Of a stretch of 64,000 nucleotides of DNA, positions 27,376 through 55,054 are shown in pieces (positions within the stretch are counted from its first letter, which is position 1; every line of letters starts with the position of its first letter). This DNA is from Melioribacteraceae bacterium (GTDB taxonomy: Bacteria; Bacteroidota; Ignavibacteria; Ignavibacteriales; Melioribacteraceae): positions 1 to 64,000 of the forward strand of contig JAFGMI010000049.1 in assembly GCA_016927595.1 (NCBI GenBank), written 5' to 3'. A program made the position numbers and the translations under genes. A model generated the notes under the pieces. The model saw only the letters and a list, made by a program, of their open reading frames with translations, ran no database searches and was not told the origin of the DNA.

Positions 27376-27436
27376 TATCAAAAAAAACAAGGCAAATTTT
27401 TAACAATTCTTAAAGAGTAAAAGGATGTAGTATAAT

Positions 27437-29359: not shown

Positions 29360-29379
29360 GCTACCTGAAGGTAAAAAGC

Positions 29380-30411: not shown

Positions 30412-30427
30412 TAAAAAATTATAAAAA

Positions 30428-31954: not shown

Positions 31955-32045
31955 TAAGTATTTTATGGTTCTGATCACTAAATGATAATTAAAATCTATT
32001 ATTAAAAATTTATAAGTATAAATTAATAAACAGAAAGGTGAAGAA

Positions 32046-33932: not shown

Positions 33933-34025
33933 ATTGAAAAATTATAACGTTTTGATTCCTGAAAAATATTGCAACGGATTCAAGAGAGAAAATTTTATTT
34001 AAAACCAGCTGTGGGAAACTCTATC

Positions 34026-36953
34026 ATGAAAAGAATTATTAAAATCATATCCGGTTTGAGAGAAATCAGAAAAAGTGTTGCTGCGTTAATTCCAGTTATC
34101 TTTATTAATACAATTATATCAGCAGGCACGGGGGATTCTTATATCAGCAGGACAACTGGTTCCTTCACAATGTCCTCAGGTGTAAACTCTGCGGCTATTT
34201 TTATTAGTCCTGACGATTACCCGGGAGTAATAAGAGTTGCTAAACTTTTGCAGACTGATATTGAGAAAGTAACAGGTATCAGACCAGAACTACGTACCAA
34301 TGACAAGCCCGAAGGCAAAGAGGTTATCATTGCCGGAACTATCGGTAAAAGCCTACTGCTGGATGAATTGATCCGTACGAATAAAATTAATGTAGATGAT
34401 ATAAGAGGGAAATGGGAAGCATCGGTTCTGCAGGTGGTTGATAAACCTTTTGATGGTGTTGAAAAGGCATTCGTTATTGCCGGAAGCGATAAAAGAGGTA
34501 CTATATTCGGTATCTTCGATCTTTCTGAGAAGATAGGTGTATCGCCATGGTACTGGTGGGCGGATGTACCTGTCAAAAAAAGTGATAAGCTATTCGTAAA
34601 ATCCGGGAGGTATACTTACGGTGAACCAAAGGTTAAATACCGCGGTATATTTATTAATGATGAAGCCCCTGCGTTATCCGGCTGGTCACAGGCAAAATAC
34701 GGAACCGTTCAGTTCAATCATCATCTTTATGAAAATGTATTCGAATTAATACTCAGACTTAAGGGCAATTTTTTATGGCCTGCAATGTGGGGCAGGGCAT
34801 TTTACGACGATGATCCCATTAATCCGCAGCTGGCTGATGAATACGGAATCGTGATAGGTACTTCACATCATGAACCGATGATGCGTGCGCACGTTGAATG
34901 GCAGCGATACGGATCCGGGCCATGGAACTATGAGAAAAATGAAGTGACCTTAAAAGACTTCTGGAAAAAAGGTATAGAAAGAATGGGCTCATACGAGAGT
35001 ATTGTTACTTTAGCTATGCGGGGGGATGGTGACGAAGCTATGAGTTCTACTGCTAATGTTGAACTGCTTCAGAGAATTGTTAATGATCAGAGAGAAATAC
35101 TCACAGAAGTAACCGGTAAAGAGATTACAGAAATTCCGCAGGTGTGGGCACTTTATAAAGAAGTGCAGGAATATTATGACAAAGGGATGAGAGTACCTGA
35201 TGACGTTACTTTGTTATTGTGCGACGATAACTGGGGAAATATTCGTAAGCTTCCTAATTTAAATGAAAAACCCAGGTCGGGTGGTTACGGAATGTATTAT
35301 CATTACGACTATGTCGGCGGTCCGAGAAATTATAAGTGGCTTAACACAAACCAGATTGAACGCGTATGGCAGCAAATGACACTGGCTTACGAATATGGTG
35401 TGAAGGAAATCTGGATAGTAAATGTCGGGGATATCAAACCGATGGAATTCCCTATTGATTTTTTCCTCGACCTTGCATGGGATCCGGAAAAAATTTCAGC
35501 GGAAGACCTTCCCGCATATTATAAACATTGGGCTGAAGAACAATTCGGTTCTGATTATATTGATGATGTAGCGGAGATTTTAAGCAAGTACACAAAATTC
35601 AATTCCAGACGTAAACCCGAACTGCTTGCCCCAGATACTTATAGCCTGATTCATTATCAGGAAGCCGAACAAATTGTGAATGACTACAAGGAACTTGAGG
35701 AAAAGGCTTTATCTGTTTATGATGAGATCCCTCAGAGTTACAGAGATGCATTTTATCAGCTTGTACTTCATCCTGTAGAAGCATGTGCGAATTTAAACGA
35801 AATGCTGGTAACCATCGGAAAAAACCGGTTGTATGCGAAACAGGGAAGAGCTCTTACAAACAAACTTGCCGACAAAGCAGAAGAACTGTTTGAAAGAGAT
35901 GCAGAAATAACTTTTTATTATAACGAAGTAATGGCTGACGGGAAATGGAAACATATGATGGATCAGACTCATATCGGTTATACTTCCTGGCAGCAGCCGG
36001 ATGAAAATGTAATGCCGGAAGTTAGACGAATTAACATTTCCGGATCGGCTGAAATGGGTGTCGCTATACAGGGAACTGAAACCTGGTTCCCGGAAGATAA
36101 ACGCAAATTTATTTTACCCGTGTTTGATTCATTCAATAAACAGAATTATTATATTGATATTTTTAACCGGGGGGAAGAACCATTTGAATATTCAATTAAG
36201 TCTGATTCAGACTGGATTGTGCTTACTAAACCGTTCAGCGAAATAATTACGACAGAACAACGTATCCAGGTAAGTATTGACTGGGATAAGGCTCCGAAAG
36301 GTATGAATATCTCTAATATTAAAATTTCCGGACCTGCTAATGAAACCGTAATCGTCGATGTTGTAATTAACAACCAGGAAATTAATGAAGCAGATTTTAC
36401 TAATCGTTTTATCGAAAGTAATGGTTATATCTCTATAGAAGCAGAGAATTATTCTGATGCGATTAATTCTGATGGGACATCATGGGCTGTAATTCCGAAT
36501 CTCGGTAAAACTGCCTCTGCCGTGACCTTAACTCCATATACAGAAGTTAATCAAGTACCCGGAGACGGAGGTTCATGTCTTAAATATGATTTATATCTCT
36601 TTTCAAGCGGGGAAGTAAAAGTCAATATGTATTTCTCACCCACATTGAATTATGGTTACTCCGACGGATTATACTACGGTGTATCTTTTAACGATAAAAA
36701 ACCAAAAGTTATTAATATTACTGAAGGGGATACTCCCGATTGGAAATACCCTCAATACTGGAATCAGCAGGTGAGTAATAATATTAGAATAAAAAGTACA
36801 AAACATGTGATTTCAAAACCAGGTAAACATGTTCTGAAATTCTGGGCTGTAAATCCCGGAGTAGTTCTTCAGAAAATAGTAATTGATTTCGGCGGTGTAA
36901 AAGAAAGTTATCTCGGGCCTCCCGAGAGTTTTAACAGTATGATCATAAATTAA
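34026..36953 (+). CDS. GH115 alpha-1,2-glucuronidase acting on xylan
   Basis: Removes (4-O-methyl-)glucuronate side chains from xylan and its oligomers. The protein has 975 residues, the normal size for GH115. An export signal occupies about 1-33. The N-terminal domain (about 40-190) shows G-S-D-K-R-G-T-I-F-G-I. The catalytic barrel follows with Y-W-W-A-D-V-P, K-Y-R-G-I-F-I-N-D-E, L-K-G-N-F-L-W-P-A-M-W and G-T-S-H-H-E-P-M. Also present are R-G-D-G-D-E-A-M, D-D-N-W-G-N-I-R and V-N-V-G-D-I-K-P-M-E-F. Its C-terminal beta-sandwich (from about 800) opens G-Y-I-S-I-E-A-E-N-Y. The in-frame region upstream from TTG 33969 is unlikely to be translated. The family call is very firm. It is the enzyme that would supply the substrate for the downstream methyl-transfer and Uxu genes. 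Confidence 0.93.
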   Translation: MKRIIKIISGLREIRKSVAALIPVIFINTIISAGTGDSYISRTTGSFTMSSGVNSAAIFISPDDYPGVIRVAKLLQTDIEKVTGIRPELRTNDKPEGKEVIIAGTIGKSLLLDELIRTNKINVDDIRGKWEASVLQVVDKPFDGVEKAFVIAGSDKRGTIFGIFDLSEKIGVSPWYWWADVPVKKSDKLFVKSGRYTYGEPKVKYRGIFINDEAPALSGWSQAKYGTVQFNHHLYENVFELILRLKGNFLWPAMWGRAFYDDDPINPQLADEYGIVIGTSHHEPMMRAHVEWQRYGSGPWNYEKNEVTLKDFWKKGIERMGSYESIVTLAMRGDGDEAMSSTANVELLQRIVNDQREILTEVTGKEITEIPQVWALYKEVQEYYDKGMRVPDDVTLLLCDDNWGNIRKLPNLNEKPRSGGYGMYYHYDYVGGPRNYKWLNTNQIERVWQQMTLAYEYGVKEIWIVNVGDIKPMEFPIDFFLDLAWDPEKISAEDLPAYYKHWAEEQFGSDYIDDVAEILSKYTKFNSRRKPELLAPDTYSLIHYQEAEQIVNDYKELEEKALSVYDEIPQSYRDAFYQLVLHPVEACANLNEMLVTIGKNRLYAKQGRALTNKLADKAEELFERDAEITFYYNEVMADGKWKHMMDQTHIGYTSWQQPDENVMPEVRRINISGSAEMGVAIQGTETWFPEDKRKFILPVFDSFNKQNYYIDIFNRGEEPFEYSIKSDSDWIVLTKPFSEIITTEQRIQVSIDWDKAPKGMNISNIKISGPANETVIVDVVINNQEINEADFTNRFIESNGYISIEAENYSDAINSDGTSWAVIPNLGKTASAVTLTPYTEVNQVPGDGGSCLKYDLYLFSSGEVKVNMYFSPTLNYGYSDGLYYGVSFNDKKPKVINITEGDTPDWKYPQYWNQQVSNNIRIKSTKHVISKPGKHVLKFWAVNPGVVLQKIVIDFGGVKESYLGPPESFNSMIIN

Positions 36954-36965: not shown

Positions 36966-38708
36966 ATGAAAAAGATAATTATAATTTCTGTTTTATCAGC
37001 GCTTATGTTTGCAGGCTGCGGGAAAGAACCTGAAAAAGAATTTTTCAATAATCCGATCTTAGCTGGTTTTTATCCTGATCCAAGTATTTGCAAAGTAGGT
37101 GATAACTACTACCTGGTTAATTCTACATTTTCCTATTTCCCCGGCATACCTGTTTTTCACAGCGGGGATCTGGTAAATTGGAAACTGATTGGACATGCGC
37201 TGGACAGACCGGAACAACTAAGCCTTAATGGGCTAGGGGTTTCAAGAGGAATATTTGCACCTGCAATAAGTTATAACAACGGAACGTTTTATGTGACTTG
37301 TACATTGGTTGACGGCGGGGGAAATTTTGTTGTAAAAGCAGATAAGCCCGAAGGTCCCTGGTCTGACTTAATATGGCTTCCTGAAATAAATGGAATAGAT
37401 CCTTCACTGTTTTTTGATGACGACGGGAGAGCTTATATAACTTTCAATAGCGATGCGCCTGATAACAAACCTTTGTATGAAGGACATCGTACTGTAAGAA
37501 TAGTTGAATTCGATATTACTGATATGAAAGTTATTAGCGAACCAAAAATACTAATAAACGGAGGCGTAGATTTAAGTAAAAAGCCGATTTGGATTGAAGG
37601 ACCTCACATTTACAAAATCAATAATATGTATTACTTGACAGCTGCAGAAGGAGGTACGGCTGAGGATCATTCGCAAGTTATTCTGCGAAGCGGGAATGTT
37701 GACGGGCCTTATATAGCCTACGAAAACAATCCGATACTAACCCAGCGACACCTTGATCCCGGACGTCAATTCCCGGTAACCTGCACGGGTCATGCTGATT
37801 TCGTACAAAATGACAAAGGGAACTGGTGGGCAGTATTTCTCGGATGCAGACCGTATGAACCCTTCGGGGAAAATTTTTATAATACAGGAAGGGAAACATT
37901 TCTTGCACCTGTAAAATGGATAACGGATAACGACTCAACCGGAATAGGGTGGCCTGTAATAAATCCTGATTACGAGGAAGTCCAGTATAAATATCCTTTA
38001 CCTATAAAACCTGCCGGCGAAGAAGCAGATATACCATACAACGGAAACTTTACTTTAAGAGATAATTTTGATTCCGAACTTCTTCACCCCAGCTGGATTT
38101 TTCTTCGTACACCGCATGAAAAGTGGTATGAACTTAACGGTACTGATAATTATCTTTCAATCGATCTGCGTCCGGAAACCTGTTCAGGCGAAATGAATCC
38201 GAGCTTTATTGCCAGGAGACAGCAGCATTCAAACGGATATGCTATGACAGAATTCAATTTCGTTCCTGAAGCAGAGCACGAAAAAGCAGGGCTGTTGATT
38301 TTTCAGGACGAAACTCACTTTTATTTCATCTGCAAGTCGATGAAGGACAATGTACAAATGATCGAGTTGTATAAATCTTCCAACGACCATGATAACAATT
38401 TAGAACTGATAAAGGCTGATACATTGAGTGATTCGTATTATAATGAAAATATGATATTTAAAATTGAGACTCGCGGAAGGTATTATAATTTTTATTACGG
38501 CATTAATGAAAATGGACTTAAATTGTTAGCAGATAATATTGATGCGACTTATCTAAGCATCAGGAAAGCCTGGGGATTTACAGGCAACGTTTTTGCTATG
38601 TACGCGACTTCGCTGGGTAATGCTTCGTATAATAATGCAGTCTACAGCTGGTTTGAATATTCCGGCAATGATAGAGTATATCACAAAAATAATATGGACA
38701 CAAAATGA
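36966..38708 (+). CDS. Lipoprotein GH43 beta-xylosidase/arabinofuranosidase
   Basis: A 580-residue GH43 with a lipobox at L-M-F-A-G-C (Cys18), so membrane-anchored and probably facing the periplasm. The propeller (about 25-335) has base D38 in F-Y-P-D-P-S-I, the pKa-tuning Asp in G-I-D-P-S-L-F-F-D-D-D, and acid E211 in W-I-E-G-P-H-I-Y. A C-terminal sandwich (about 355-570) resembles the second domain of GH43 xylosidases (subfamilies 1, 11 and 12 type). It is not closely related to the two T9SS-tailed GH43 copies. It starts 12 bases after the GH115 gene and its stop overlaps the corrinoid protein start (ATGA at 38705-38708), so translation of carbohydrate and corrinoid genes is coupled. Confidence 0.9.
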   Translation: MKKIIIISVLSALMFAGCGKEPEKEFFNNPILAGFYPDPSICKVGDNYYLVNSTFSYFPGIPVFHSGDLVNWKLIGHALDRPEQLSLNGLGVSRGIFAPAISYNNGTFYVTCTLVDGGGNFVVKADKPEGPWSDLIWLPEINGIDPSLFFDDDGRAYITFNSDAPDNKPLYEGHRTVRIVEFDITDMKVISEPKILINGGVDLSKKPIWIEGPHIYKINNMYYLTAAEGGTAEDHSQVILRSGNVDGPYIAYENNPILTQRHLDPGRQFPVTCTGHADFVQNDKGNWWAVFLGCRPYEPFGENFYNTGRETFLAPVKWITDNDSTGIGWPVINPDYEEVQYKYPLPIKPAGEEADIPYNGNFTLRDNFDSELLHPSWIFLRTPHEKWYELNGTDNYLSIDLRPETCSGEMNPSFIARRQQHSNGYAMTEFNFVPEAEHEKAGLLIFQDETHFYFICKSMKDNVQMIELYKSSNDHDNNLELIKADTLSDSYYNENMIFKIETRGRYYNFYYGINENGLKLLADNIDATYLSIRKAWGFTGNVFAMYATSLGNASYNNAVYSWFEYSGNDRVYHKNNMDTK

Positions 38709-39373
38709 GTGAATTGATCGAACAAATCAGCAAGTGTATTGAACGAGGTAAAGTAGATAAAGTATCGCCCTATCCTCCTGATATGAGGGATCAGGAAGGT
38801 GCAGATGAACTTTCTGCGCGAGCAATTGAAGAAGGTCTCGGCGCCGATGAAATTCTTAAAGCCTGTAATTCGGGTATGCAGAACATCGGTGACCGCTTCG
38901 GACGAGGTGAAGTATTCGTCCCCGAATTACTGATGTCTGCTAGGGCAATGAACGCGGTAATGAAACACCTTAAGCCGTTCTTTCAATCCGGCACCGTAAA
39001 GGCAAAAGGAAAATTTATAATAGGAACGGTTGCCGGTGACTTGCATGATATCGGTAAAAATCTTGTATCAATGGTAGTTGAGGGTAACGGATGGGAAGTT
39101 ATTGATCTTGGGGTAGATGTAAAAACGAATAAGTTCATCGAAACAATAAAACAGCATCCGGATTCAATGGTGGGTCTGAGCGCACTGCTTACAACAACAA
39201 TGGGGAATATGGCAAATACAGTTAAAGAAATAAAATCTTTGTTCCCTCAAACAAAGGTAATTGTAGGCGGCGCACCTTTAACCAGAGAGGCGGCTGATCA
39301 AATGGGTGCAGATGGATATGCACGCGACCCTCAAGGTGCGGTTGGATTTTTAAATGGTATGCTGTATTCATAA
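38705..39373 (+). CDS. Corrinoid (cobalamin-binding) methyltransferase protein
   Basis: A cytosolic methyl carrier of 222 residues, the typical MtaC/MtbC/MttC size. The N-terminal helical cap (about 1-90) has the M-Q-N-I-G-D-R-F-G-R-G-E form. The B12-binding Rossmann domain (about 100-222) carries the base-off signature D112-L-H114-D-I-G117, with H114 as lower cobalt ligand, followed by the G-L-S-A-L and G-G-A-P-L blocks. Such proteins take a methyl group from a substrate methyltransferase and hand it to an acceptor enzyme. The start codon overlaps the GH43 stop in ATGA, and the acceptor-type homocysteine methyltransferase is 33 bases downstream. The placement inside a glucuronoxylan operon is the unusual feature here. 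Confidence 0.9.
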   Translation: MSELIEQISKCIERGKVDKVSPYPPDMRDQEGADELSARAIEEGLGADEILKACNSGMQNIGDRFGRGEVFVPELLMSARAMNAVMKHLKPFFQSGTVKAKGKFIIGTVAGDLHDIGKNLVSMVVEGNGWEVIDLGVDVKTNKFIETIKQHPDSMVGLSALLTTTMGNMANTVKEIKSLFPQTKVIVGGAPLTREAADQMGADGYARDPQGAVGFLNGMLYS

Positions 39374-39406: not shown

Positions 39407-40297
39407 ATGAGAAGTCTGCTAAAATCTCTTAAATCCGGTAAAGTACTTATTTCCGACGGGGCATGGGGTACGTTCCTTCATGAGAAGGGATTGAAATCAG
39501 GTGAATGTCCGGAATTGTGGAATATATCTAATCGTAATGCTGTACTCGAAATTGCAAAAAGCTATGTGGCTGCAGGTTCGGATATGATTCTTACAAATAG
39601 TTTCGGTGGAAGCCCTGTAAAACTCAATCATTATGGTTTGGAAGACAGAGCATACGAGTTGAATAAAGCAGCTGCGGAAATATCTCGTGAGGCTGCAGGG
39701 AATAGTTGTTTGGTGCTCGGATCAATCGGACCGACTGGAAAAGTGCTGATGATGGAGGAAGTGTCGGAGTCTGATATGTACGACGGTTTCTATCTGCAGG
39801 CTCAGGCATTAAAGGCAGGCGGTGCAGATGCAATATGTGTGGAAACCATGTCTGCTATTGATGAAGCCTCTTTAGCGGTGCGGGCAGCAAAGAAAGCAAC
39901 AAACCTTGAAATAATCTGCACTTTTACTTTCGATAAAACAAAAGCCGGTGAATACAGAACAATGATGGGAGTATCTCCGGCTGAAATGGTAAATACAGTA
40001 AAAGAAGCCGGAGCAGACGTTATAGGCACAAACTGCGGCAACGGATTTGTGAACATGATTGACATAGTAAAAGAAATAAGAAATGTTGACGCATACACAC
40101 CCGTGCTGGTGCATGCAAATGCCGGAATACCCGTCCTGGTTGATGGTGTATCAGTATTTCCCGATACTCCGGAATTTATGGCATCGCATATTAAAGAGCT
40201 TATTGATTGCGGAGCGAATATAATCGGAGGATGCTGCGGTACTACTCCGGCACACATCAGAGCAATGGTTACAGAAATTAATAAGATTTCTCAGTAA
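39407..40297 (+). CDS. Stand-alone homocysteine S-methyltransferase domain protein
   Basis: A 296-residue (beta/alpha)8 protein matching only the first, homocysteine-binding domain of cobalamin-dependent methionine synthase. It starts with D-G-A-W-G-T-F-L. The three zinc cysteines are visible: C210 in G-T-N-C-G-N-G, and C276 and C277 in G-G-C-C-G-T-T-P. There is no methyl-tetrahydrofolate domain, cobalamin domain or reactivation domain in the chain. The cobalamin part is supplied by the gene just upstream and the methyl-donor part is probably supplied by the URO-D-like gene downstream. The likely reaction is methyl-corrinoid plus homocysteine to methionine. It could instead use an S-methyl donor directly, like BHMT or MmuM. 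Confidence 0.85.
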   Translation: MRSLLKSLKSGKVLISDGAWGTFLHEKGLKSGECPELWNISNRNAVLEIAKSYVAAGSDMILTNSFGGSPVKLNHYGLEDRAYELNKAAAEISREAAGNSCLVLGSIGPTGKVLMMEEVSESDMYDGFYLQAQALKAGGADAICVETMSAIDEASLAVRAAKKATNLEIICTFTFDKTKAGEYRTMMGVSPAEMVNTVKEAGADVIGTNCGNGFVNMIDIVKEIRNVDAYTPVLVHANAGIPVLVDGVSVFPDTPEFMASHIKELIDCGANIIGGCCGTTPAHIRAMVTEINKISQ

Positions 40298-40349
40298 TAA
40301 ATTTCTAAAAAATAATTAATGTAAAAAATAATGTTCAATGGAGTGTGAA

Positions 40350-41378
40350 ATGACCGACAGGCAATGGGAAACACTGGTTAATATTATAAATGGAGAAAGA
40401 ACAGAAAAACTACCCGTGGGATTTATTATTGATAGTCCCTGGTTGCCGAATTGGTATGGTATTAAAATAATCGATTATTTCTCAAATGATGATCTATGGC
40501 TGAAGGCAAATCTGAAAGCTATCAATGACTTTCCGGAGGCAATATTCTTACCCGGTTTCTGGTCCGAGTTCGGCATGTGTACTGAACCGTCAGCTTTCGG
40601 TGCAAGAGTAACTTTCCCACCTGATGAGTTTCCGCATGCACATAAAATTATTAATTCTGCCGATGATATTGATGATCTGGTTGAACCCAACCCCAAAACA
40701 GATGGTCTGCTTCCCTTCATGCTGAATCGTTTGAAACTTGCACAACCTAAGATCGAGGATGCTGGACATAAAATTAAATTTGCCGTTGCACGTGGTCCGC
40801 TTAATATAGCAAGTTATCTTATGGGAACAACCGAGTTCCTGACAACATTGATGATGCAGCCGGATAAAGCAGAAATGCTGGTAAGGAAAATAACTTCTTA
40901 TCTTAAGAACTGGATAGAACTCCAGCGGGCAACATTCCCGACAATTGACGGCATCTTACTGCTTGATGATATAATCGGGTTTATGGGAGAGCCTGAGTTC
41001 AGAACTTTCGGACTGCCTTATTTCAAAGAACTTTTCGATGTGGATGTTACCGTGAGATTTTTGCATAACGATGCCCCTTGTAAAGTATCAGCTCCTATTC
41101 TTCCTGAAATGAATGTAAACCTTTTTAATATGGGTTTTGATGTTACGCTGAATGAACTAAAGGAAATTACTCAGCATAAGGTTACAATGCTTGGGAATAT
41201 ACCTCCGCGGGATGTATTAGCAGCAGGCAGTGCTGAGGATGTAACTCATGCTGTCATCGAATTGATTCAATCACTGGAAGACAGGAAACATGTTATAATT
41301 TCCTGCGGCGGAGGAATGCCACCCGATGTGAAAACGGAGAATATCAAAGCTTTCATCGAAGCAGTGAATAATAATTAA
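40350..41378 (+). CDS. URO-D superfamily methyltransferase, probable substrate-specific O-demethylase component
   Basis: A 342-residue barrel of the uroporphyrinogen decarboxylase superfamily, in the methyltransferase branch. The putative zinc set is H239 and C244 (L-H-N-D-A-P-C) with C319 (I-S-C-G-G-G-M-P-P). It ends with the P-D-V-K-T-E-N-I-K-A-F form seen in corrinoid methyltransferases rather than haem enzymes. The H-x4-C spacing differs from the H-x-C of coenzyme-M type MtaA/MtbA. Some aromatic O-demethylases use URO-D-type methyltransferases at the substrate step, so this is my candidate for methyl removal from 4-O-methyl-glucuronate. ATG 40350 has GGAG six bases upstream and is preferred to ATG 40338. 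Methylated aromatic acids freed by esterases are an alternative substrate. Confidence 0.75.
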   Translation: MTDRQWETLVNIINGERTEKLPVGFIIDSPWLPNWYGIKIIDYFSNDDLWLKANLKAINDFPEAIFLPGFWSEFGMCTEPSAFGARVTFPPDEFPHAHKIINSADDIDDLVEPNPKTDGLLPFMLNRLKLAQPKIEDAGHKIKFAVARGPLNIASYLMGTTEFLTTLMMQPDKAEMLVRKITSYLKNWIELQRATFPTIDGILLLDDIIGFMGEPEFRTFGLPYFKELFDVDVTVRFLHNDAPCKVSAPILPEMNVNLFNMGFDVTLNELKEITQHKVTMLGNIPPRDVLAAGSAEDVTHAVIELIQSLEDRKHVIISCGGGMPPDVKTENIKAFIEAVNNN

Positions 41379-41385
41379 CCGGAGA

Positions 41386-42495
41386 ATGAACTTGAAGACA
41401 CAAATTACGATAGTATTAATTCTTTTATGCTCCTTTTTTTCACAAGCGCAACAAGGTGTCGCTACAATTGATAATAATGCTCCTGATGTTGAAATAAAAG
41501 GGACACAGGTCCAAAAAATATTTTCAGAGATTATGAACCAGGAATATGAACTTCATGTGAATATCCCGAGATTTTATGAGGATACTAGTCGCAGTTTTCC
41601 TGTTCTCTTTCTTCTTGATTCGCAGTGGGATTTTCCCCTGATGCAGGCAATATATGGCGAACAATACTATGACGGATTTGTACCGGAATTATTAATCATA
41701 GGAATTACCTGGGCGGGGGAAAATGTTAATATCGATAAGCTGCGTGCACGGGATTTCACACCCACTAAAGCAAAATTTCAATATGAAACCGGTAAGGCAC
41801 CTGAGTTCTTAAAGTTCTTCAGAAATGAATTAATCCCGTTTATTGAAAAAAATTACAGGGTAACCGGCAATCGTTCTCTTGCCGGCAGTTCATTCGGCGG
41901 ATTGTTTACTTTATTCGCAATGTTTACTGAGACCGATCTTTTTACGAATTATATTTTAACAAGCCCCGCGCTTGAGTGGGATGAAAGAATATTGTTTGCT
42001 GTAGAAAATGAATACTCCCGTAACAATTCTGATTTAAACGCAAGACTGTATATGGCAATCGGATCTTATGAGTTTCTTGATGTTTTTAATGAACTGGTTA
42101 ATATTCTCAATTCAAGAAAGTATGAAGGATTAAAGTATGAATATAAAATACTTGACGGTATTGGACACTCGGGCAGTAAAGCTGAAGGTTATACCAGGGG
42201 TATTCAATTTGTGTTTGAAATTCCGGAAGCAACTGTCGACGAAAAAATACTTAGAAGTTATGAAGGGGAGTATTCTACAGCAGATGGAGTTAATATTGAA
42301 ATAGTCTTTAGGGAGAGTATTTTATTTGCAGTACTTCCCGGTGAAGCTGAATTCCCACTGTATCCTAAATCCGAAACAGATTTTTACGTCAAAGGGGCTT
42401 ACAACAGAGTGCATTTTCAAAGAGATAATTCAGGGCGTGTAAACGGAATGAAAGTGGAACAGTTCAGCGAACAATTATCATTAAAGAAATTATAA
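41386..42495 (+). CDS. Secreted CE1/esterase-D-like alpha/beta hydrolase (feruloyl or acetyl esterase candidate)
   Basis: A 369-residue exported esterase. The signal peptide ends at F-F-S-Q-A-Q (about 23). The esterase-D fold has nucleophile S169 in L-A-G-S-S-F-G-G and catalytic H261 in I-G-H-S-G-S-K. The oxyanion strand region is F-P-V-L-F-L-L-D-S. A small extra domain of about 90 residues follows (Y-E-G-E-Y-S-T-A-D-G). GGAG at 41381-41384 is only one base from ATG 41386 but seven from TTG 41392, so TTG 41392 may be the true start. In a glucuronoarabinoxylan locus it probably removes ferulate or acetate; siderophore esterases share the fold but do not fit the context. It is 7 bases after the URO-D gene. 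Confidence 0.75.
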   Translation: MNLKTQITIVLILLCSFFSQAQQGVATIDNNAPDVEIKGTQVQKIFSEIMNQEYELHVNIPRFYEDTSRSFPVLFLLDSQWDFPLMQAIYGEQYYDGFVPELLIIGITWAGENVNIDKLRARDFTPTKAKFQYETGKAPEFLKFFRNELIPFIEKNYRVTGNRSLAGSSFGGLFTLFAMFTETDLFTNYILTSPALEWDERILFAVENEYSRNNSDLNARLYMAIGSYEFLDVFNELVNILNSRKYEGLKYEYKILDGIGHSGSKAEGYTRGIQFVFEIPEATVDEKILRSYEGEYSTADGVNIEIVFRESILFAVLPGEAEFPLYPKSETDFYVKGAYNRVHFQRDNSGRVNGMKVEQFSEQLSLKKL

Positions 42496-42519
42496 ATTAC
42501 TGCAAAGACAATAGATAAA

Positions 42520-43794
42520 ATGCTAAATAAGTTGAAATTTATTTATCTAAAACATTTTTTAATAATAATTCTTACTGCATTTTTCCTGCTTCTTTTACCT
42601 TTAACCACGAGTGCATTCAAAGATAGTGCCGACAGCACAAAATTTATATCATTAGTCAGTAAAGTGATTGATGATGCATCTTTTAAATTTATTGATTATG
42701 AATCCGGTGAAGTTTATTCTAATCCCAATTCGGCTTCACAGAATGTTTTTCTCAACCTGCAAAGCGCTTACAACGACTGGCGTTACTGGAACGGTGTATT
42801 AAACATTGCCATGCTGAATCTGAGTGAAGTTACAGGGGATGAAAGTTACAGGGATTTCGCTGTACGAAATGTTGGATTCGGATTCAACACTTATGGTTAT
42901 TACAAGAAAAAATATAGCGGGCAGAATAAATGGTCTTATCCTTTCGGACAGTTTTTTACTATTGAGGAACTTGACGACTGCGGTGCAATAGGCGCAAGTG
43001 TTATCGAGGTACATAAAATCTCCCCGCATGATATTTATGAAAAATACATAATACAATCGGCTGAACATATTTCATACAAACAAAGCAGACTTAATGACGG
43101 TACCTTTGTAAGGTCTTTTCCCTTTAAATGGACTTTGTGGGCGGATGATCTTTACATGTCGGTTTCATTCCTTTCAAGGATGTACGAATACAGCGGGGAC
43201 GAAAAGTATCTTAATGATGCTGTCCTGCAGGTATTGAACTTCAATAATTATCTGTTTGATGAAAACAAAGGTTTAATGTGCCATAACTGGTACTCTGATC
43301 TGAACCAGAAAGGTGTTGCTTTCTGGGGAAGAGCTAACGGATGGGCTTTGCTGGCTCAGGTTGATTTGCTGGATGTAATGCCGGAGACGCATTCATCAAG
43401 AGAGCAACTGATAAAACTTCTAAACAGACATGTGCTCGGTATTATAAAATATCAGTCCGCATCCGGTTTATGGCATCAACTGCTGGATAAAAACGATTCA
43501 TACCTCGAAACATCTTGTTCAGCAATGTTTACATACACTATCGCCAGGGCAGTTAACAAGGGTTTTTTAGATAAACGTTTTACTTCTGCCGCCATAAGAG
43601 GTTGGGAAGGTGTGCTGTCTAAAATAAGACCTGACGGGATGGTGGAAGGTGTGTGCACCGGGACTGTTGTGAGTGATAACCTTGTTGATTATTATAATCG
43701 CCCGGCTCCCCTTAATGATGTTCATGGAATCGGGACAGTTATTCTTGCCGGCTCGGAAATCTTAATATTAAATAAAATCAATAAATTGAATTAA
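42520..43794 (+). CDS. GH105-like unsaturated uronyl hydrolase
   Basis: A 424-residue exported (alpha/alpha)6 enzyme resembling YteR/RhiN, which hydrolyses unsaturated uronic acid from the non-reducing end of oligosaccharides made by lyases. The N-terminus has a basic then strongly hydrophobic signal (about 8-32). Family blocks include W-A-D-D-L-Y-M-S with the expected catalytic D209, F-W-G-R-A-N-G-W-A-L-L-A, Y-L-E-T-S-C-S-A-M-F, and a C-terminal G-I-G-T-V-I-L-A. No polysaccharide lyase is recognised with certainty in the window; the beta-helix protein at 32046 is the only candidate partner. The gene lies 24 bases after the esterase in the operon. Confidence 0.8.
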   Translation: MLNKLKFIYLKHFLIIILTAFFLLLLPLTTSAFKDSADSTKFISLVSKVIDDASFKFIDYESGEVYSNPNSASQNVFLNLQSAYNDWRYWNGVLNIAMLNLSEVTGDESYRDFAVRNVGFGFNTYGYYKKKYSGQNKWSYPFGQFFTIEELDDCGAIGASVIEVHKISPHDIYEKYIIQSAEHISYKQSRLNDGTFVRSFPFKWTLWADDLYMSVSFLSRMYEYSGDEKYLNDAVLQVLNFNNYLFDENKGLMCHNWYSDLNQKGVAFWGRANGWALLAQVDLLDVMPETHSSREQLIKLLNRHVLGIIKYQSASGLWHQLLDKNDSYLETSCSAMFTYTIARAVNKGFLDKRFTSAAIRGWEGVLSKIRPDGMVEGVCTGTVVSDNLVDYYNRPAPLNDVHGIGTVILAGSEILILNKINKLN

Positions 43795-43901
43795 TCGGTT
43801 CTTCATTAGCATTAATAAAAATTATTCAGCTACAAGTAATAGCATAAAGAAACGCTATAATCTGAATACTTTTATATTTATGGAATGATAAAAAGTCATG
43901 A

Positions 43902-44930
43902 GTGAATAAATTGAAAAAATTACTATCCAATTCTTTAAAGGTTGCAAATTTACAGAGACGCAGAATGGTTTTTCCTCTTATAGGTTTCCCCGGGTTAAAT
44001 TTAACCGGGGGCACTATCAAACTGGCTCAGCAGAACTACGGTGAACATTACAAGGTAGTAAAAGCTCTTGCCGATGAATTTAAACCGGATGCAATATTCC
44101 CCCTGATGGATCTTTCAGTAGAAGCCAATGCGCTTGGGCGTCTGACGGTATTTCCTAAGAAGGAATCGGCAACGGTTGTAAAAGATGAGTTTAGTATGGA
44201 TGAACTTAAATCATTTGAAAATATTAATATTGCTTATGATACAAGATTGCATGGATACGTAGAAACTATGAAAATGATGAGCATTGGTCTGCCAAAGGAC
44301 ATTTTGCGCGGAGCCTATGTTTCAGGTCCATATACACTTACAGCTCTGATTATGGGAGCCGATGAAGCTGCAATTTTAACAATTATGAATCCTGAATTGT
44401 TAATGCAGGTGTGTGAAGTTGCAACTGAAAAAATTCTGGAGTATGTAAGACTCCTTGTAGCCTCGGGTGCACAAATGATATGTGTTCTCGAGCCTAGCGC
44501 GGTGATGCTCGGTCCCGAACAGTTTAAACAATTTTCGGCAGATTATGTCGGGAGAATTGTTAATAGTCTCAGATATTCCGATGTGGCTGTAATTTATCAT
44601 GTTTGCGGGAACTCGATGCATCTGATAGAAACAATGTGCTCATCAGGTGTTGATGCGCTAAGCCTCGATTCATCCGATATGGGAATTGATCTTCCGCTTG
44701 CGGCATATAAGGTACCTGATAGTGTAATAATTATTGGAAACATCAGTCCGACTAAAAATCTGCTGAGAGGGAATCCGCATGATATTGAATCGGATGTACA
44801 GGAATTACTTGATCAAATGAAATCTTTTCCGAATTATATTTTAAGTTCGGGATGTGATCTTCCTCAGGAAACTCCGGTCGAAAATATCCATGCATTTATG
44901 AACGCCGGAAGAAAATATAAGTTGCAATAG
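43902..44930 (+). CDS. URO-D superfamily methyltransferase of the MtaA/MtbA type (methyl-corrinoid handling)
   Basis: The second URO-D-like methyltransferase of the cluster, 342 residues. It has the canonical corrinoid methyltransferase zinc site: H233-x-C235 in Y-H-V-C-G-N, and C318 in S-S-G-C-D-L-P, followed by T-P-V-E-N-I-H-A. This is the pattern of MtaA/MtbA, which move methyl groups between a corrinoid protein and a thiol. It differs from the gene at 40350, which has a wider H-x4-C. It could be the second methyltransferase of the pathway or an enzyme for another methylated substrate. No ATG lies near the start; GTG 43902 or TTG 43911 must be used, because ATG 43965 would cut conserved residues. 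A terminator follows. Confidence 0.8.
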   Translation: MNKLKKLLSNSLKVANLQRRRMVFPLIGFPGLNLTGGTIKLAQQNYGEHYKVVKALADEFKPDAIFPLMDLSVEANALGRLTVFPKKESATVVKDEFSMDELKSFENINIAYDTRLHGYVETMKMMSIGLPKDILRGAYVSGPYTLTALIMGADEAAILTIMNPELLMQVCEVATEKILEYVRLLVASGAQMICVLEPSAVMLGPEQFKQFSADYVGRIVNSLRYSDVAVIYHVCGNSMHLIETMCSSGVDALSLDSSDMGIDLPLAAYKVPDSVIIIGNISPTKNLLRGNPHDIESDVQELLDQMKSFPNYILSSGCDLPQETPVENIHAFMNAGRKYKLQ

Positions 44931-45030: not shown

Positions 45031-46329
45031 TTAAAATCCGAAAAAACGCGGCAGCCACAGACTCAACTCGGGAAAATAAGTTACTATTATTAAAGTAACT
45101 ATCATTGCTCCGTAAAAAGGTAAAAGGGGTTTTACTACCTGTTCGATCTTTACATTAGCAACACTGCACCCTATGAATAAAACTGATCCTACCGGAGGTG
45201 TACATAAGCCTACGCATAAGTTCATTATCAGAATAATACCGAAATGTATGGGATCAACACCTAAGTTAATGACGACGGGTAAAAATATGGGTGTAAATAT
45301 TAAGACAGCAGGTGTCATGTCCATAAAAACGCCTACAAAAAGAAGGACTAAATTAATAATTAAGAATATAGCTATTTTGCTGTCGCTGAAACTTAGCAAC
45401 GTAGCACTAATGCTTTGAGGAATATTTTCGAATGATAATACCCATGATAGTGCTATAGATGTAGCGATAAGCAGCATAACGATTGCAACAATTTTAACAG
45501 TGTTAAGTATTATTGCGGGTAGGTCGCGTAGTTTTATTTGTCGATAGATGAAGGATAAAATCAGTGCATATAATACAGCAACCGTGGAAGCTTCCGTTGC
45601 GGTAAATATACCTGCGATTATGCCGCCGATTACTACAACCAGTAAAAACAAACTGGGTAACGCATCAAGAAATTTAATTACGGCAAATTTTATACTGACT
45701 TTTTCAGCGACCTGAACACCGAACTGACGGGCATGATATCCGGCTACCAACATTAAAGCCAGTCCAATTAATATTCCAGGAATATATCCGGCTATGAACA
45801 ATGCAGCAATTGAAACACCTCCGCTGGCAAGTGAATACACAATTAAAATATTACTTGGTGGGATTATTAATCCGGTTGTAGCTGAAGTAATATTCACGGC
45901 GGCGCTGAACGGTTTTTGGTAACCTTCTTTTTCCATGACAGGTGTCATGAATCCGCCTATTGCCGAAGCGGATGCACCCGCTGAACCCGATATAGCACCA
46001 AATAACATATTTGCTAAAATATTCACAAATGCAAGCCCGCCCGGTAGTCTGCCCACCAGCACTTTGGCGAAGTCGATTAATTTTATTGCAATACCTCCTT
46101 TGTTCATTAATTCTCCTGCGAGAATAAAGAATGGTATGGCGAGCAGAGTAAAACTGTCTAATCCTGTTGCCATTCGCTGCGCTAAAGCTGTAAATGAGGG
46201 AAGAGAGTCCACGCTTACAATTAATGTAAGAACTGCCGAAAGCCCCAGGCTATATGCAACGGGGACACCAAAGACCAGAAATACAATAAAACTTATTACA
46301 AGGATTATTATTCCAATTGTTTCCATCAT
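45031..46329 (-). CDS. TRAP transporter large permease (DctM family)
   Basis: The 12-helix-type membrane subunit of a tripartite ATP-independent transporter that imports an organic acid driven by an ion gradient. The 432 residues match DctM/SiaM length. Family blocks are F-F-I-L-A-G-E-L-M-N-K-G-G, G-A-I-S-G-S-A-G-A-S-A-S-A, I-I-P-P-S-N and F-T-A-T-E-A-S-T-V-A-V. N-L-C-V-G-L-C-T-P-P-V-G follows near the end. It is the last gene of a five-gene minus-strand operon, 8 bases after the DctQ gene. Two ATGs stand side by side at 46329 and 46326; AAAGGA is 3 or 6 bases upstream, so the second may be used. Genes for glucuronate breakdown in the same operon point to glucuronate as substrate. Confidence 0.92.
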   Translation of the reverse strand: MMETIGIIILVISFIVFLVFGVPVAYSLGLSAVLTLIVSVDSLPSFTALAQRMATGLDSFTLLAIPFFILAGELMNKGGIAIKLIDFAKVLVGRLPGGLAFVNILANMLFGAISGSAGASASAIGGFMTPVMEKEGYQKPFSAAVNITSATTGLIIPPSNILIVYSLASGGVSIAALFIAGYIPGILIGLALMLVAGYHARQFGVQVAEKVSIKFAVIKFLDALPSLFLLVVVIGGIIAGIFTATEASTVAVLYALILSFIYRQIKLRDLPAIILNTVKIVAIVMLLIATSIALSWVLSFENIPQSISATLLSFSDSKIAIFLIINLVLLFVGVFMDMTPAVLIFTPIFLPVVINLGVDPIHFGIILIMNLCVGLCTPPVGSVLFIGCSVANVKIEQVVKPLLPFYGAMIVTLIIVTYFPELSLWLPRFFGF

Positions 46330-46337
46330 ATATCCTT

Positions 46338-46829
46338 TTAATCCAGATACTTTTTAGTGTTGTTTGACTTCATGCCAATAATTAAATCGAACAGGGAGTA
46401 ATAGATTATCAGCAGACCGCTGATTGGTATAACCGCGTACACATACCCAATCGGAACTAACAGCGCAGCCGAAGTATTTCCTAATTTTAGAAGGATATAA
46501 ATTAAATTGGTTCCTCCGATAACCATAACGGTAAGCGCAAAAATGGATACGGCAATATTGATAAGATTATTGATGAGTGCCCTGTTTTTTTCGTTGAATT
46601 TGTTTACAATTACGTCGATAGCCAGATGCAGTTTTTTGCCGGTAGCGTATGCAGAACCGAGTATTCCCACCCATATAAGAAGGAACCTTGCGAGTTCATC
46701 AGTGAATGAACTAGGTGACTTTAAAATATATCTTGAAACAACCTGCCACAGTACATCTGCTACCAGAACAGCAACAATCAGTATAAGGAAAAACTCAAGT
46801 GCTTTGTCAATACCTTTTCGTAATTTCAT
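46338..46829 (-). CDS. TRAP transporter small permease (DctQ family)
   Basis: The four-helix small membrane subunit of the TRAP transporter, 163 residues. Hydrophobic segments lie at about 9-32, 46-62, 87-112 and 128-152. The family features S-F-T-D-E-L-A-R-F-L-L-I-W and G-I-L-G-S-A-Y-A-T-G-K are in place between the first and second helices. The gene starts 12 bases after the DctP gene and ends 8 bases before DctM, the usual PQM order. Confidence 0.92.
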   Translation of the reverse strand: MKLRKGIDKALEFFLILIVAVLVADVLWQVVSRYILKSPSSFTDELARFLLIWVGILGSAYATGKKLHLAIDVIVNKFNEKNRALINNLINIAVSIFALTVMVIGGTNLIYILLKLGNTSAALLVPIGYVYAVIPISGLLIIYYSLFDLIIGMKSNNTKKYLD

Positions 46830-46841
46830 AGTATTATTTAA

Positions 46842-47849
46842 TCATTTAAGATTTCTGATTCTACTTAGAAGTGAATAAATTTCATCATCATTTTTATACT
46901 TTTCATACATTGGTTCTACTTTCTTCATAAAAGGTTCTTTATCCGGATGAATAATTTTAACGCCCGCTTTTTCTAATTCTTCTAAAGCATGTTTTTCTGA
47001 TTCTTCCCAAAGTTTTCTCTGATAAAGTGCAGATTCCACAGCGGCTTCTTTTATCCATTTTTTTTCGGTATAGTTTAATTCTTCCCAGAGTCTTGTGCTT
47101 ATAATAAGTACATCCGGAATTGAAGCGTGCTCATCCAAAGAGTAATATTTGCAAACTTCGTAGTGATGTGATAAATAAAAGCTTGGAGGATTATTCTCTG
47201 CCGCATCAACCACACCGCCCTGCAATGCAGTATATAATTCACCCCATGAAATCGGGGTAGCCGAGCCTCCAAGGTAATCGATCATTTGAATTGCGGTGTT
47301 GCTCTGCATTACACGGATTTTCATTCCGGCTAAATCGGACGGATGTTCAATAAGCCTGTCTCTGCTGTAAAAGCTTCTGCTTCCTGCATCGTAATAACAC
47401 AATCCCCTCAGCCAGTATTCTTCTCCGGCTGCCAGCAGTTCCTCTCCCAACTCACCGTCAAGTACTCTGAAGTAGTGTTCTTTATTCTTAAAAATGTAAG
47501 GGAAGCTTAATACTTTATACTCAGGAACAATACCTTCCATTACAGCAGCCGATACTTTAGTGATTCCTATAACACCAATCTGAAGTAATTCCAGGCACTG
47601 TCCTTCCGTACCAAGCTGCTGGCTGGGGTAAATGTTGACTTCAATTTGACCATTCGATTTTTCTTTAATCTTCTCAGCCATATATTCCATCGCTTCATGA
47701 ACAGGGTGCGAAGTATCAAGAGCATGTGCCAGTTTTATAATTTTTTTATTTTGCTCTGTACAGCCGGATATTTGTAATGATACAATAGTTAAGCACAAAC
47801 TTAAAAATACAAATCTGATGGGGTGGAAATTCGATTTTATTTGCATCAT
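46842..47849 (-). CDS. TRAP transporter substrate-binding lipoprotein (DctP family), probable uronate binder
   Basis: The periplasmic binding protein of the TRAP system, 335 residues. A signal with lipobox L-Q-I-S-G-C suggests it is lipid-anchored. The DctP pattern includes H-A-L-D-T-S-H-P-V-H-E-A and I-Y-P-S-Q-Q-L-G, followed by M-K-I-R-V-M-Q-S. The Arg of that last motif normally holds the ligand carboxylate. Further on are W-G-E-L-Y-T-A-L-Q-G-G-V-V-D-A-A-E-N. ATG 47849 is chosen; the frame extends to a TTG at 47876, and ATG 47846 is also possible. It lies 100 bases after uxuA, with a perfect palindrome in that gap. Neighbour genes suggest glucuronate (or 4-O-methyl-glucuronate) as ligand. 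Confidence 0.88.
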   Translation of the reverse strand: MMQIKSNFHPIRFVFLSLCLTIVSLQISGCTEQNKKIIKLAHALDTSHPVHEAMEYMAEKIKEKSNGQIEVNIYPSQQLGTEGQCLELLQIGVIGITKVSAAVMEGIVPEYKVLSFPYIFKNKEHYFRVLDGELGEELLAAGEEYWLRGLCYYDAGSRSFYSRDRLIEHPSDLAGMKIRVMQSNTAIQMIDYLGGSATPISWGELYTALQGGVVDAAENNPPSFYLSHHYEVCKYYSLDEHASIPDVLIISTRLWEELNYTEKKWIKEAAVESALYQRKLWEESEKHALEELEKAGVKIIHPDKEPFMKKVEPMYEKYKNDDEIYSLLSRIRNLK

Positions 47850-47896
47850 ATAATAGCGGGCTTCATTATTATTCAATAATTTCTATGTTAATACTG

Positions 47897-47949: not shown

Positions 47950-49143
47950 CTATTTTATTCCAAGTGTTTGAATTATTCCCTTTTCCATTCCCCGCAGTTC
48001 AGCAAGTCCTCTCAGTCTTCCCATAAGAGAATATCCCGGGTAGATACCTTCCTTATTCTGCTCGGCAGTCATTAAATTACCGTGATCCGGACGCATAGGC
48101 ATCCTCGTGTCTTTTCTGCCATTTTGTTTGCGACGTTCCTGTTCGAGTAATAAAATTTTAATAATGCTGTATATATCTATATGTCCGTCAAGGTGATAAG
48201 ATTCCGTAAAATCACCATCTTCATTTCTGGTAAGATTCCTTAGATGAACAAAATTAATTCTATGGGCAAAACTCTCAGCCATCAAAACAAGATCATTATT
48301 GAAGCCTGCCCCCAAAGAGCCTGTACAGAAAGTAATTCCGTTGGAAGGCGAATCGATAACATTAAGAATTTTCTGAATGTCATTTTTGTTGCCGACAATT
48401 CTTGGGAGTCCCAATAGCTGCCATGGCGGATCATCGGGATGAATTGCCATTCTAACACCCGATTCTTCTGCAACCGGGATAATTTCCTTAATGAAACTGT
48501 AAAGATTTTCGCGCACCTTATCTTCACCAATTCGGTTAAATTCCAGAACAGCTTCCTTAAAATCTTCAAGATTATAGGCTTCAAGTGAGCCCGGCAAACC
48601 GAAGAGAATTGTTTTTGTTAATTCCTCTTTCCCGGCTTCGGACATATTGTTAAAATGCTCTTCGGCTAACTTAATTTGTTTTTCGGTATACTGATTAGCA
48701 GCACCAGGACGTTTTAATATGAACAGATCAAATGCTGCAAATACTTTTGATTCGAATCTTGTGGTTATTGACCCGTCGCTTGAGGTAACTTTCAGATTTG
48801 TACGCGACCAGTCCAGAACCGGCATGAAATTATATGCAATTGTATTAATACCGCATTCGGAAAGGTTTCTTACAGATTGCTTGTAGTTTTCAATTAACTC
48901 TTTAAAGTTATCTTTACCCCTTTTTATATTTTCATGCACCGGAAGACTTTCTACTACAGACCATTTTAATTCTTCATCTTCAATCATCTTTTTTCTTTTC
49001 AGGATTTCATCAACCGACCATATTTTACCCACAGGTATCTGATGAAGAGCTGTTACAATACCGACTGCACCGGTCTGTTTAATTTCCGTTAATGAAATAG
49101 GATCATTCGGACCGAACCATCTCCAGGTTTGTTCAAATGCCAT
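47950..49143 (-). CDS. uxuA: Mannonate dehydratase
   Basis: Converts D-mannonate to 2-keto-3-deoxygluconate in glucuronate catabolism. The 397 residues match UxuA length. Family signs are the start M-A-F-E-Q-T-W-R-W-F-G, V-T-A-L-H-Q-I-P, and N-F-M-P-V-L-D-W-S-R-T. Metal-binding strands include M-A-I-H-P-D-D-P-P, F-C-T-G-S-L-G, F-V-H-L-R-N-L and R-P-D-H-G. GAGGAAG lies about 5 bases before ATG 49143. It is the second gene of the operon, 20 bases after the SDR gene. Glucuronate isomerase (uxaC), which would act before this pair, is not in the window. Confidence 0.95.
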   Translation of the reverse strand: MAFEQTWRWFGPNDPISLTEIKQTGAVGIVTALHQIPVGKIWSVDEILKRKKMIEDEELKWSVVESLPVHENIKRGKDNFKELIENYKQSVRNLSECGINTIAYNFMPVLDWSRTNLKVTSSDGSITTRFESKVFAAFDLFILKRPGAANQYTEKQIKLAEEHFNNMSEAGKEELTKTILFGLPGSLEAYNLEDFKEAVLEFNRIGEDKVRENLYSFIKEIIPVAEESGVRMAIHPDDPPWQLLGLPRIVGNKNDIQKILNVIDSPSNGITFCTGSLGAGFNNDLVLMAESFAHRINFVHLRNLTRNEDGDFTESYHLDGHIDIYSIIKILLLEQERRKQNGRKDTRMPMRPDHGNLMTAEQNKEGIYPGYSLMGRLRGLAELRGMEKGIIQTLGIK

Positions 49144-49163: not shown

Positions 49164-49988
49164 TTATACTCCGCTGAACACGCTGAATCCGCCGTCAATA
49201 GGTATAATTGCACCTGTAACAAATCTTGAAGCATCGCTTGCCAGCCATAAAACCGGACCAACCATCTCCTCTGGCTCACCGAAACGCCTGAAGGGAGTAA
49301 TACTGATTATTGTTTTGCCCCTTTCAGTTAATGATCCGTCTTCGTTTGTAAGCAGTGCTCTGTTCTGATCGGTAAGCAGGAAACCGGGTGCAATTGCGTT
49401 TACTCTGACGCCGCTGCCGAATTTTGTCGCCATTTCCACAGCCATCCACTTGGTAAAATTATCCACCGCGGCTTTAGCAGCAGAATAACCTACCACGCGG
49501 GTTATCGCTCTGTAAGATGCCATAGATGAGATATTTATAATTGACCCCTTTTGCTGTTCAGCCATTACTTTGCCAAATGTTAAAGTAGGTAGTACTGTCC
49601 CGTTGAAGTTAAGATCTGTTACTTTTTTAAATGCATCAATTTTCAGATCGAAAATATTCTGGTCGACACCGATTGTAGCTCCTGTCATATTTCCTCCGGC
49701 GGCATTTACCAGAATGTCAATTTTATTAAATTTACTGAGTATTTCAGATTTAACATCCTCTAAATTATTTTGATCGAGAACGTTACAGGTTATTCCAGAA
49801 ACATTATCCTTAAAATCAACCAGCTTTTTAATACTTCTATCCAGATTTTCTTTATTGATATCGAGTAAAATTACTTTTGCACCGGCATATAAAAATCCCT
49901 TAGCCATTTCACCAGCCAGAATACCGCCACCGCCGGTAAGCACTGCAACTCTGTTTTTTATATCGAACAGTGAACTTAAATATTCCAT
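49164..49988 (-). CDS. uxuB: SDR-type D-mannonate oxidoreductase (fructuronate reductase)
   Basis: Reduces fructuronate to mannonate with NAD(P)H, just before mannonate dehydratase. It is a 274-residue short-chain dehydrogenase, like the Bacillus UxuB/YjmF type and unlike the long-chain E. coli UxuB. The nucleotide loop is T-G-G-G-G-I-L-A-G. N-A-A-G-G-N-M and the catalytic Ser in I-N-I-S-S-M-A-S are present, with Y-S-A-A-K. The C-terminus has G-G-F-S-V-F. AGGTGA is just before ATG 49988. It is the first gene of the operon, with an operator-like palindrome 73-90 bases upstream. The SDR fold is certain; the substrate is from context. Confidence 0.85.
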   Translation of the reverse strand: MEYLSSLFDIKNRVAVLTGGGGILAGEMAKGFLYAGAKVILLDINKENLDRSIKKLVDFKDNVSGITCNVLDQNNLEDVKSEILSKFNKIDILVNAAGGNMTGATIGVDQNIFDLKIDAFKKVTDLNFNGTVLPTLTFGKVMAEQQKGSIINISSMASYRAITRVVGYSAAKAAVDNFTKWMAVEMATKFGSGVRVNAIAPGFLLTDQNRALLTNEDGSLTERGKTIISITPFRRFGEPEEMVGPVLWLASDASRFVTGAIIPIDGGFSVFSGV

Positions 49989-55046: not shown

Positions 55047-55054
55047 AAATCCTC

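Follow-up and report, generated by a model that had tools for sequence, protein, structure and literature searches.

A putative corrinoid-dependent O-demethylation module within a glucuronoxylan locus of a Melioribacteraceae bacterium

A window of 64,000 nucleotides from a Melioribacteraceae bacterium (assembly GCA_016927595.1, contig JAFGMI010000049.1, positions 1 to 64,000) was found to hold a gene cluster which very probably constitutes an oxygen-independent O-demethylation module for the methylated sugar acid of glucuronoxylan. The genome, herein referred to as G000, comprises 3.85 Mb in 59 contigs (C1 onwards). Eight plus-strand genes are lined up in succession, the distances between them ranging from -4 to 107 bases, and encode an alpha-glucuronidase of glycoside hydrolase (GH) family 115, a GH43 enzyme, a corrinoid protein (CORR), a homocysteine S-methyltransferase (HMT), a URO-D-fold methyltransferase I (UROD1), an esterase, a PF07470 protein and a second URO-D methyltransferase (UROD2). 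The predicted URO-D methyltransferase I thus stands beside a small corrinoid protein, which is the arrangement by which corrinoid O-demethylases are recognised. The most likely role of UROD1 is corrinoid-dependent O-demethylation, either of 4-O-methylglucuronate itself or of an intermediate that arises from it, whereby the methyl group would be passed on to homocysteine. A preliminary description of this DNA as a split methionine-synthase-like machine with two URO-D enzymes had missed the substrate. Judging from the adjacent genes this is 4-O-methylglucuronate, a decoration of wood and straw xylan and the usual methyl sugar of this polymer.

Co-occurrence with alpha-glucuronidases carries this assignment in the first place. 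Within a sample of 391 genomes of the class, taken from a larger set, UROD1 was identified in 45 and GH115 in 43 genomes, 40 of which possess both, and GH67, an unrelated alpha-glucuronidase family, in 36 genomes, 31 of them together with UROD1 (Fisher p, with kinship not modelled, of 1.9e-45 for UROD1-GH115 and 6.4e-30 for UROD1-GH67). In the family to which the window belongs, the identical ten genomes carry UROD1 and GH115, and three genera (g1, g5 and g6) comprise species with both genes beside species with neither of them. Both genes locate to one contig in 25 of the 40 shared genomes and lie within 10 kb of each other in 20 of these.

Gene neighbourhoods were compared for 80 UROD1 loci, these being the best 80 of at least 569 from several phyla, with a lean to near relatives. 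Genes were counted on all open reading frames (ORFs) using phmmer with one query each and a bit cut-off of 80, whereby single members of the trio formed by CORR, HMT and a cobalamin activation protein can be missed. GH115 or GH67 is present in 27 of these loci and the complete trio accompanies UROD1 in 23. Since this set of genes is met repeatedly in genomes that are unrelated, the clustering is far beyond chance. The cluster also occurs in a metagenome-assembled genome labelled Melioribacter roseus (L057). One Chitinispirillaceae contig (L061) encodes DctPQM, glucuronate isomerase, CORR, HMT, the activation protein and UROD1 and, moreover, 2-keto-3-deoxygluconate (KDG) kinase, 2-keto-3-deoxy-6-phosphogluconate (KDPG) aldolase, UxuB and UxuA, whereby the glucuronate pathway is complete, while no match to any glycoside hydrolase query was obtained for it. 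Judged by its predicted genes, this locus is a glucuronate pathway with the demethylation module inside. Xylans bearing ferulate are common, which counts in favour of an alternative whereby UROD1 is an aromatic O-demethylase of the vanillate or ferulate type, acting on methoxyphenols of feruloylated xylan with the PF00756 esterase as supplier of ferulate. The URO-D O-demethylases described in PMC13222342 and PMC8630106 act on methoxylated aromatics indeed, and among the recognised genes a PF00756 esterase comes directly after UROD1 both here and in six of the 80 loci. Nevertheless, this alternative is held to be unlikely, since UROD1 is tied to two unrelated alpha-glucuronidase families, since L061 joins it to glucuronate catabolism with no glycoside hydrolase recognised, and since the six loci with the esterase compare with 27 possessing GH115 or GH67.

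In eight of the 80 loci, including L056, L060, L063, L066 and L067, the first recognised gene behind UROD1 is GH88-like and of the PF07470 type. Unsaturated uronyl residues are a substrate type of PF07470 proteins, and as such a residue would arise if a 4-O-methyl uronate lost its methyl group by methanol elimination, a second route is conceivable. Methanol is reportedly set free when Enterobacter asburiae ferments methylglucuronoxylose. In loci without the corrinoid trio next to UROD1, a short-chain dehydrogenase/reductase (SDR) gene often lies just 5' of the latter (L056, L059, L063, L064, L075, L119 and L198). In metagenome-assembled genomes of Bacteroidales/Bacteroidota (L118, L100, L105 and L106) relatives of UROD1 are found together with DUF6807 proteins and GFO/IDH/MocA oxidoreductases, not with xylanases, a context which may reflect another sugar chemistry or a methyl sugar of a different kind.

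At the level of the UROD1 protein, translation most likely starts at 40350, as assumed in the preliminary description, because orthologues begin at that Met; residues are numbered here from the ATG at 40338. Two different zinc sites had been ascribed to the URO-D enzymes, and both motifs are present. In UROD2 the MtaA-type H-x-C...C motif (H233-x-C235...C318) is conserved, and in UROD1 the H-x4-C...C motif corresponds to H243, C248 and C323, which were identified in 88, 80 and 83 of 88 sequences respectively. Each residue of H243-N-D245 is invariant among the 88, whereby UROD1 possesses H-x-D where MtaA-type enzymes have H-x-C. However, the three members of a sister clade lack both cysteines, and in profile alignments Cys323 is off register with the second cysteine of UROD2, whilst Cys248 meets the first cysteine of UROD2 only via a gap. 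These observations weaken the assumption of a fixed zinc site, hence the H-x4-C...C of UROD1 is real as a motif but putative as a zinc site. According to PMC13222342, some O-demethylases contain zinc, whereas others, and CdmB, do not.

The predicted UROD1 model (predicted local distance difference test, pLDDT, 91.8) gave MtaA as best fold match (4ay7; Z 31.8, root mean square deviation 2.6, 325 aligned), closely followed by HemE (Z 31.1, root mean square deviation 2.7, 325 aligned), and the UROD2 model matches MtaA (4ay7) and HemE with a Z of 36.0 to both. As the two models match both references about equally, fold alone does not decide on function. An identity of UROD1 and UROD2 as haem-pathway enzymes was rejected, since their scores of 56.5 and 87.9 bits are far under the curated hemE cut-off of 302.95 bits and since the genome encodes a HemE-like protein of its own on C32 (467.9 bits to PF01208). 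For a comparison with the aromatic O-demethylases OdmB, VdmB, MtvB and MtoB the PDB set offered CdmB alone, which was matched by the UROD1 profile with 42.7 bits only; that no fold match to CdmB appeared is not read as evidence. In a URO-D tree of 24 rows, UROD1 clades A and B together received a support of 98/98 and UROD2 of 100/100, while HemE and several other sequences are placed on long branches, so that the tree says nothing on the nearest known family.

The sister clade shares 32-33% identity with UROD1 (support 98/98) and is represented in three genomes, all of which possess GH115. In G116 and G224 its gene stands beside CORR, HMT, a pterin-binding protein, an MTHFR-like protein, RACo and UxuA, whereby a third PF00809 match adjoins UROD1, and here the methyl sink would be folate. 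Within the 20 kb around the sister-clade gene of G196 no matches to the other queries used were obtained. Altogether, UxuA or GH10 accompanies the gene in two of the three loci. A demethylase that is kept together with a uronate context in two of three loci, while the parts for activation and methyl export vary, is what one would predict for an enzyme on the substrate side, and the suggestion that one of the URO-D enzymes takes this side is hence supported for UROD1.

With respect to the methyl-accepting components, it had been stated correctly that homocysteine and cobalamin parts occur as separate genes with no folate domain, although the CORR gene begins 702 bases before the interval treated at that time. 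Pfam and NCBIfam scans identified no folate domain within the cluster, so that the methyltetrahydrofolate-binding module of the MetH type is absent there. CORR possesses the base-off motif DLHDIG (residues 112-117), of which D112, H114 and G117 are conserved in an alignment of 31 sequences, and HMT the zinc-cysteine motifs NCGN and GGCCG, whose cysteines C210, C276 and C277 are conserved across 28 aligned sequences. Best NCBIfam match of CORR is MtgC with 183 bits, compared to 134 bits for MetH. As both HMT and CORR are matched better by other families than by MetH, simple fission of MetH is not favoured; what stands of the split methionine-synthase-like machine is the folate-less machine as such. 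Genome-wide, PF00809 matched twice, i.e., a 392-aa frame on C14, which we read as FolP, and a part of the full-length MetH encoded on C4, and no dedicated methylcorrinoid:tetrahydrofolate methyltransferase was identified in the genome.

The preliminary description had also reported that no reactivation protein is encoded in the window, which holds true. A search for the RACo/RamA-type ATP-driven activase (PF14574) found none in G000, G184, G255 and G039, while this activase was found in G014, G196, G116 and G224. A stand-alone MetH activation-domain protein (PF02965) is however encoded in G000 on C7 (995-1369), and in the operons of relatives the activation protein gene lies between HMT and UROD1. 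An alignment of 27 stand-alone activation proteins revealed, at a level of 80% of the rows, a conserved R-x-S-P-G-Y stretch, which we take to be the S-adenosylmethionine (SAM)-binding motif, and conserved C-terminal cysteines; these form a C-x2-C-x4-C pattern, which may bind a metal or an iron-sulfur centre through which electrons are delivered. In Thermotoga, too, the MetH activation domain stands alone (TM0269). CobS, as a marker of de novo B12 synthesis, is absent in all six genomes checked and therefore import of cobalamin is assumed, with which the one cobalamin riboswitch of the genome located directly before a TonB-dependent receptor gene is consistent.

Given these components, the cluster might instead be mainly an alternative methionine synthase or a methyl-sulfur salvage system of the mlp kind, located next to xylan genes by chance, with UROD1 and UROD2 using methyl-sulfur donors or acceptors. 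UROD2 indeed has the H-x-C...C motif used for thiols, and mlp clusters, which encode multiple MtaA-like proteins, were proposed for methyl-sulfur and selenium metabolism (PMC10418091). We regard this as very unlikely, because a full MetH is already encoded in the genome, because UROD1 follows the presence of alpha-glucuronidases species by species and because domain scans recognised no sulfur-metabolism gene in the cluster.

UROD2 scores 113.6 bits and thus under the cut-off of 235.4 for TIGR01463 (MtaA/MtbA). It was found in a minority of the loci, i.e., nine of 80 by a loose count, with seven of these above 280 bits. UROD2 is MtaA-like and probably an accessory protein, which may act on a further methyl donor or hand excess methyl groups to a thiol. 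With its MtaA-type motif it may thus be the acceptor-side enzyme suggested in the preliminary description. A further set is encoded at the contig end of C7 (L123, 1-2499), where a second corrinoid protein, the activation protein and a very divergent third URO-D (UROD3) are followed by a ROK-like protein; perhaps this set demethylates a methyl sugar of a different kind. CORR and activation protein also recur with several URO-D lineages in L024, L125, L124, L186 and L187, and L024 holds three plus one of these lineages. Such combinations suggest that the corrinoid and activation parts form a chassis reusable for other methyl donors. They also bear on the alternative that UROD1 acts on another methylated sugar or uronate, or demethylates after isomerisation, i.e., at the level of 4-O-methyl-fructuronate, -mannonate or -KDG, with UROD2 and UROD3 serving yet other sugars. 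That UROD2 and UROD3 are distinct lineages and that loci with CORR, activation protein and several URO-Ds lie beside other genes (GH31 in L024) speaks for it; GH115 and GH67 being alpha-glucuronidases, and 4-O-methylglucuronate being the xylan methyl sugar usually met, speaks against it, and this alternative is judged quite improbable.

For demethylation of 4-O-methylglucuronate as the function of the cluster, a series of steps can be suggested. The sequence itself shows the genes with their domains and motifs, their conserved grouping and the co-occurrence with alpha-glucuronidases, and from these we infer substrate, direction of transfer, acceptor and mode of activation. Initially, secreted xylanases, GH30 enzymes and a glucuronoyl esterase of carbohydrate esterase family 15 (CE15) would open the polymer, and GH115 (GH67 elsewhere) would free 4-O-methyl-D-glucuronate, which would then be imported by a tripartite ATP-independent periplasmic (TRAP) or a major facilitator superfamily (MFS) carrier. 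Next, UROD1 would bind the methylated uronate or its intermediate and transfer the 4-O-methyl group to the Co(I) of CORR. The three-cysteine zinc site of HMT would subsequently move the methyl group from CH3-Co(III) to homocysteine, whereby methionine is the presumed product because HMT is the only acceptor enzyme recognised in the cluster. Cobalt oxidised to Co(II) would be rescued by the stand-alone MetH-type activation protein together with SAM, the candidate gene being located on another contig here. Finally, the demethylated glucuronate would pass via UxaC, UxuB and UxuA to KDG and on to KDPG aldolase. On chemical grounds demethylation should be obligatory, since retro-aldol cleavage needs a free C4 hydroxyl.

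Several observations weigh against this scheme. No recognised xylan or uronate gene was found in the examined flank of 34 of the 80 loci, some of these flanks being long, while many of the contigs are short. Four of the 45 UROD1 genomes possess neither GH115 nor GH67, three of the 43 GH115 genomes are without UROD1, and so are 38 GH115 genomes outside the class, hence other routes must exist. To these are added the uncertain metal site of UROD1, the adjacency of the PF00756 esterase and the location of the activation protein gene outside the window. Furthermore, the methyl supply from xylan is estimated to exceed the methionine demand many-fold, which makes a further sink likely.

The surroundings of the cluster are those of a glucuronoxylan locus which carries the first steps of uronate catabolism (Table 1). 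GH115 enzymes free (4-O-methyl)glucuronate from xylan, the GH43 gene overlaps the CORR gene by four bases, and for the TRAP transporter encoded downstream a role in uronate uptake is proposed. No cobalamin or SAM riboswitch was found in the window at Rfam thresholds. At 52496-56434 two proteins with no Pfam match adjoin a multihaem-cytochrome-like protein; these genes are unrelated to the xylan locus.

Table 1. Predicted genes of the glucuronoxylan locus and of the adjoining uronate genes (window positions).
Feature	Position	Strand	Matches and remarks
Rest of glucuronoxylan locus	10164..33932	+	GH43 x2, GH10 xylanase, GDSL esterase, GH30-like x2, CE15-type glucuronoyl esterase, SASA esterase, zinc dehydrogenase, FGGY kinase (xylulokinase-like), beta-helix protein
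GH115 alpha-glucuronidase	33969..36953	+	PF15979 523 bits, PF17829 212 bits
GH43, beta-xylosidase/arabinofuranosidase type	36966..38708	+	PF04616 + PF17851
CORR, methyl-carrying corrinoid protein (predicted)	38705..39373	+	PF02607 + PF02310
HMT, homocysteine S-methyltransferase	39407..40297	+	PF02574 230.6 bits
UROD1, URO-D-fold methyltransferase I (predicted)	40350..41378 (ORF 40338-41378)	+	PF01208 122.9 bits
Esterase + DUF3471	41386..42495	+	PF00756; probably secreted (signal-like N-terminal stretch, by eye)
PF07470 protein	42520..43794	+	Pfam match; GH88/GH105/GH154 type uronyl hydrolase family
UROD2, MtaA-like URO-D methyltransferase (predicted)	43902..44930	+	PF01208 188.5 bits
TRAP transporter large permease	45031-46329	-	TIGR00786 459.7 bits; TRAP unit 45031..47876
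TRAP small permease	46338-46829	-	PRK09877 39.9 bits
TRAP binding protein	46842-47876	-	NF037995 240.2 bits
UxuA mannonate dehydratase	47950..49143	-	TIGR00695 506.4 bits (cut-off 199.55)
UxuB-type D-mannonate oxidoreductase (SDR)	49164..49988	-	PRK08277 362.5 bits (cut-off 281)

Comparison with known systems revealed likenesses to several of them. The three-component O-demethylases of acetogens and methanogens (OdmB, VdmB, MtvB, MtoB and partners) likewise combine a URO-D methyltransferase I, a small corrinoid protein and an ether as methyl donor (PMC13222342 and PMC8630106), but act on aromatic ethers, employ a tetrahydrofolate or tetrahydromethanopterin methyltransferase and depend on an ATP-driven activase. 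Here, by contrast, a sugar ether is suggested by the context, a homocysteine methyltransferase serves as partner and activation usually falls to a SAM domain of the MetH type. The split methionine synthase and glycine betaine demethylase (MtgB-C-D-E) systems of Ruegeria and Phaeobacter also possess separate corrinoid and homocysteine subunits able to link a demethylase to methionine (PMC12478193 and PMC5764234); their donor enzyme belongs to PF06253, they retain a pterin subunit and depend on RamA/DUF1638 for reactivation, whereas in our case the donor enzyme is of the URO-D type, the genome encodes no dedicated pterin subunit and PF02965 alone accompanies the genes in relatives. MetH likewise has modules for homocysteine, cobalamin and activation, with motifs of the same types; here these are separate proteins and the folate module is lacking. 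With MtaA/MtbA and Mlp proteins UROD1 and UROD2 have the fold in common, and UROD2 keeps the H-x-C...C, while UROD1 differs by H-x-D and shifted cysteines and no coenzyme M context is seen. Finally, the cytochrome P450 acting on 6-O-methyl-D-galactose of porphyran also strips an O-methyl group from a polysaccharide-derived sugar (PMC10033563 and PMC12316285), yet it is an oxygen-using monooxygenase which yields formaldehyde, whereas the route suggested here would be anaerobic and would conserve the methyl group.

In PMC12316285 the anaerobic demethylation of methyl galactose is called unsolved, and for the corrinoid-dependent demethylation of 4-O-methylglucuronate no description was found in the open-licence text of PubMed Central, subscription papers lying outside the scope of this search. 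For anaerobic sugar demethylation the cluster supplies a named candidate enzyme together with a candidate acceptor. Few plant polymers are more abundant than glucuronoxylan, whose methylated uronate is barred from KDPG aldolase cleavage as long as it carries the methyl group. We consider it rather probable that with UROD1 a corrinoid O-demethylase acting on an aliphatic sugar ether becomes known for the first time, that xylan-degrading anaerobes of many phyla make the methyl group of their methionine by this route and that the trio of CORR, HMT and activation protein serves as chassis for varied URO-D enzymes, each directed at a different methyl sugar. If true, xylan breakdown would be linked to vitamin B12 and methionine, and a sugar source would join the anaerobic one-carbon economy.

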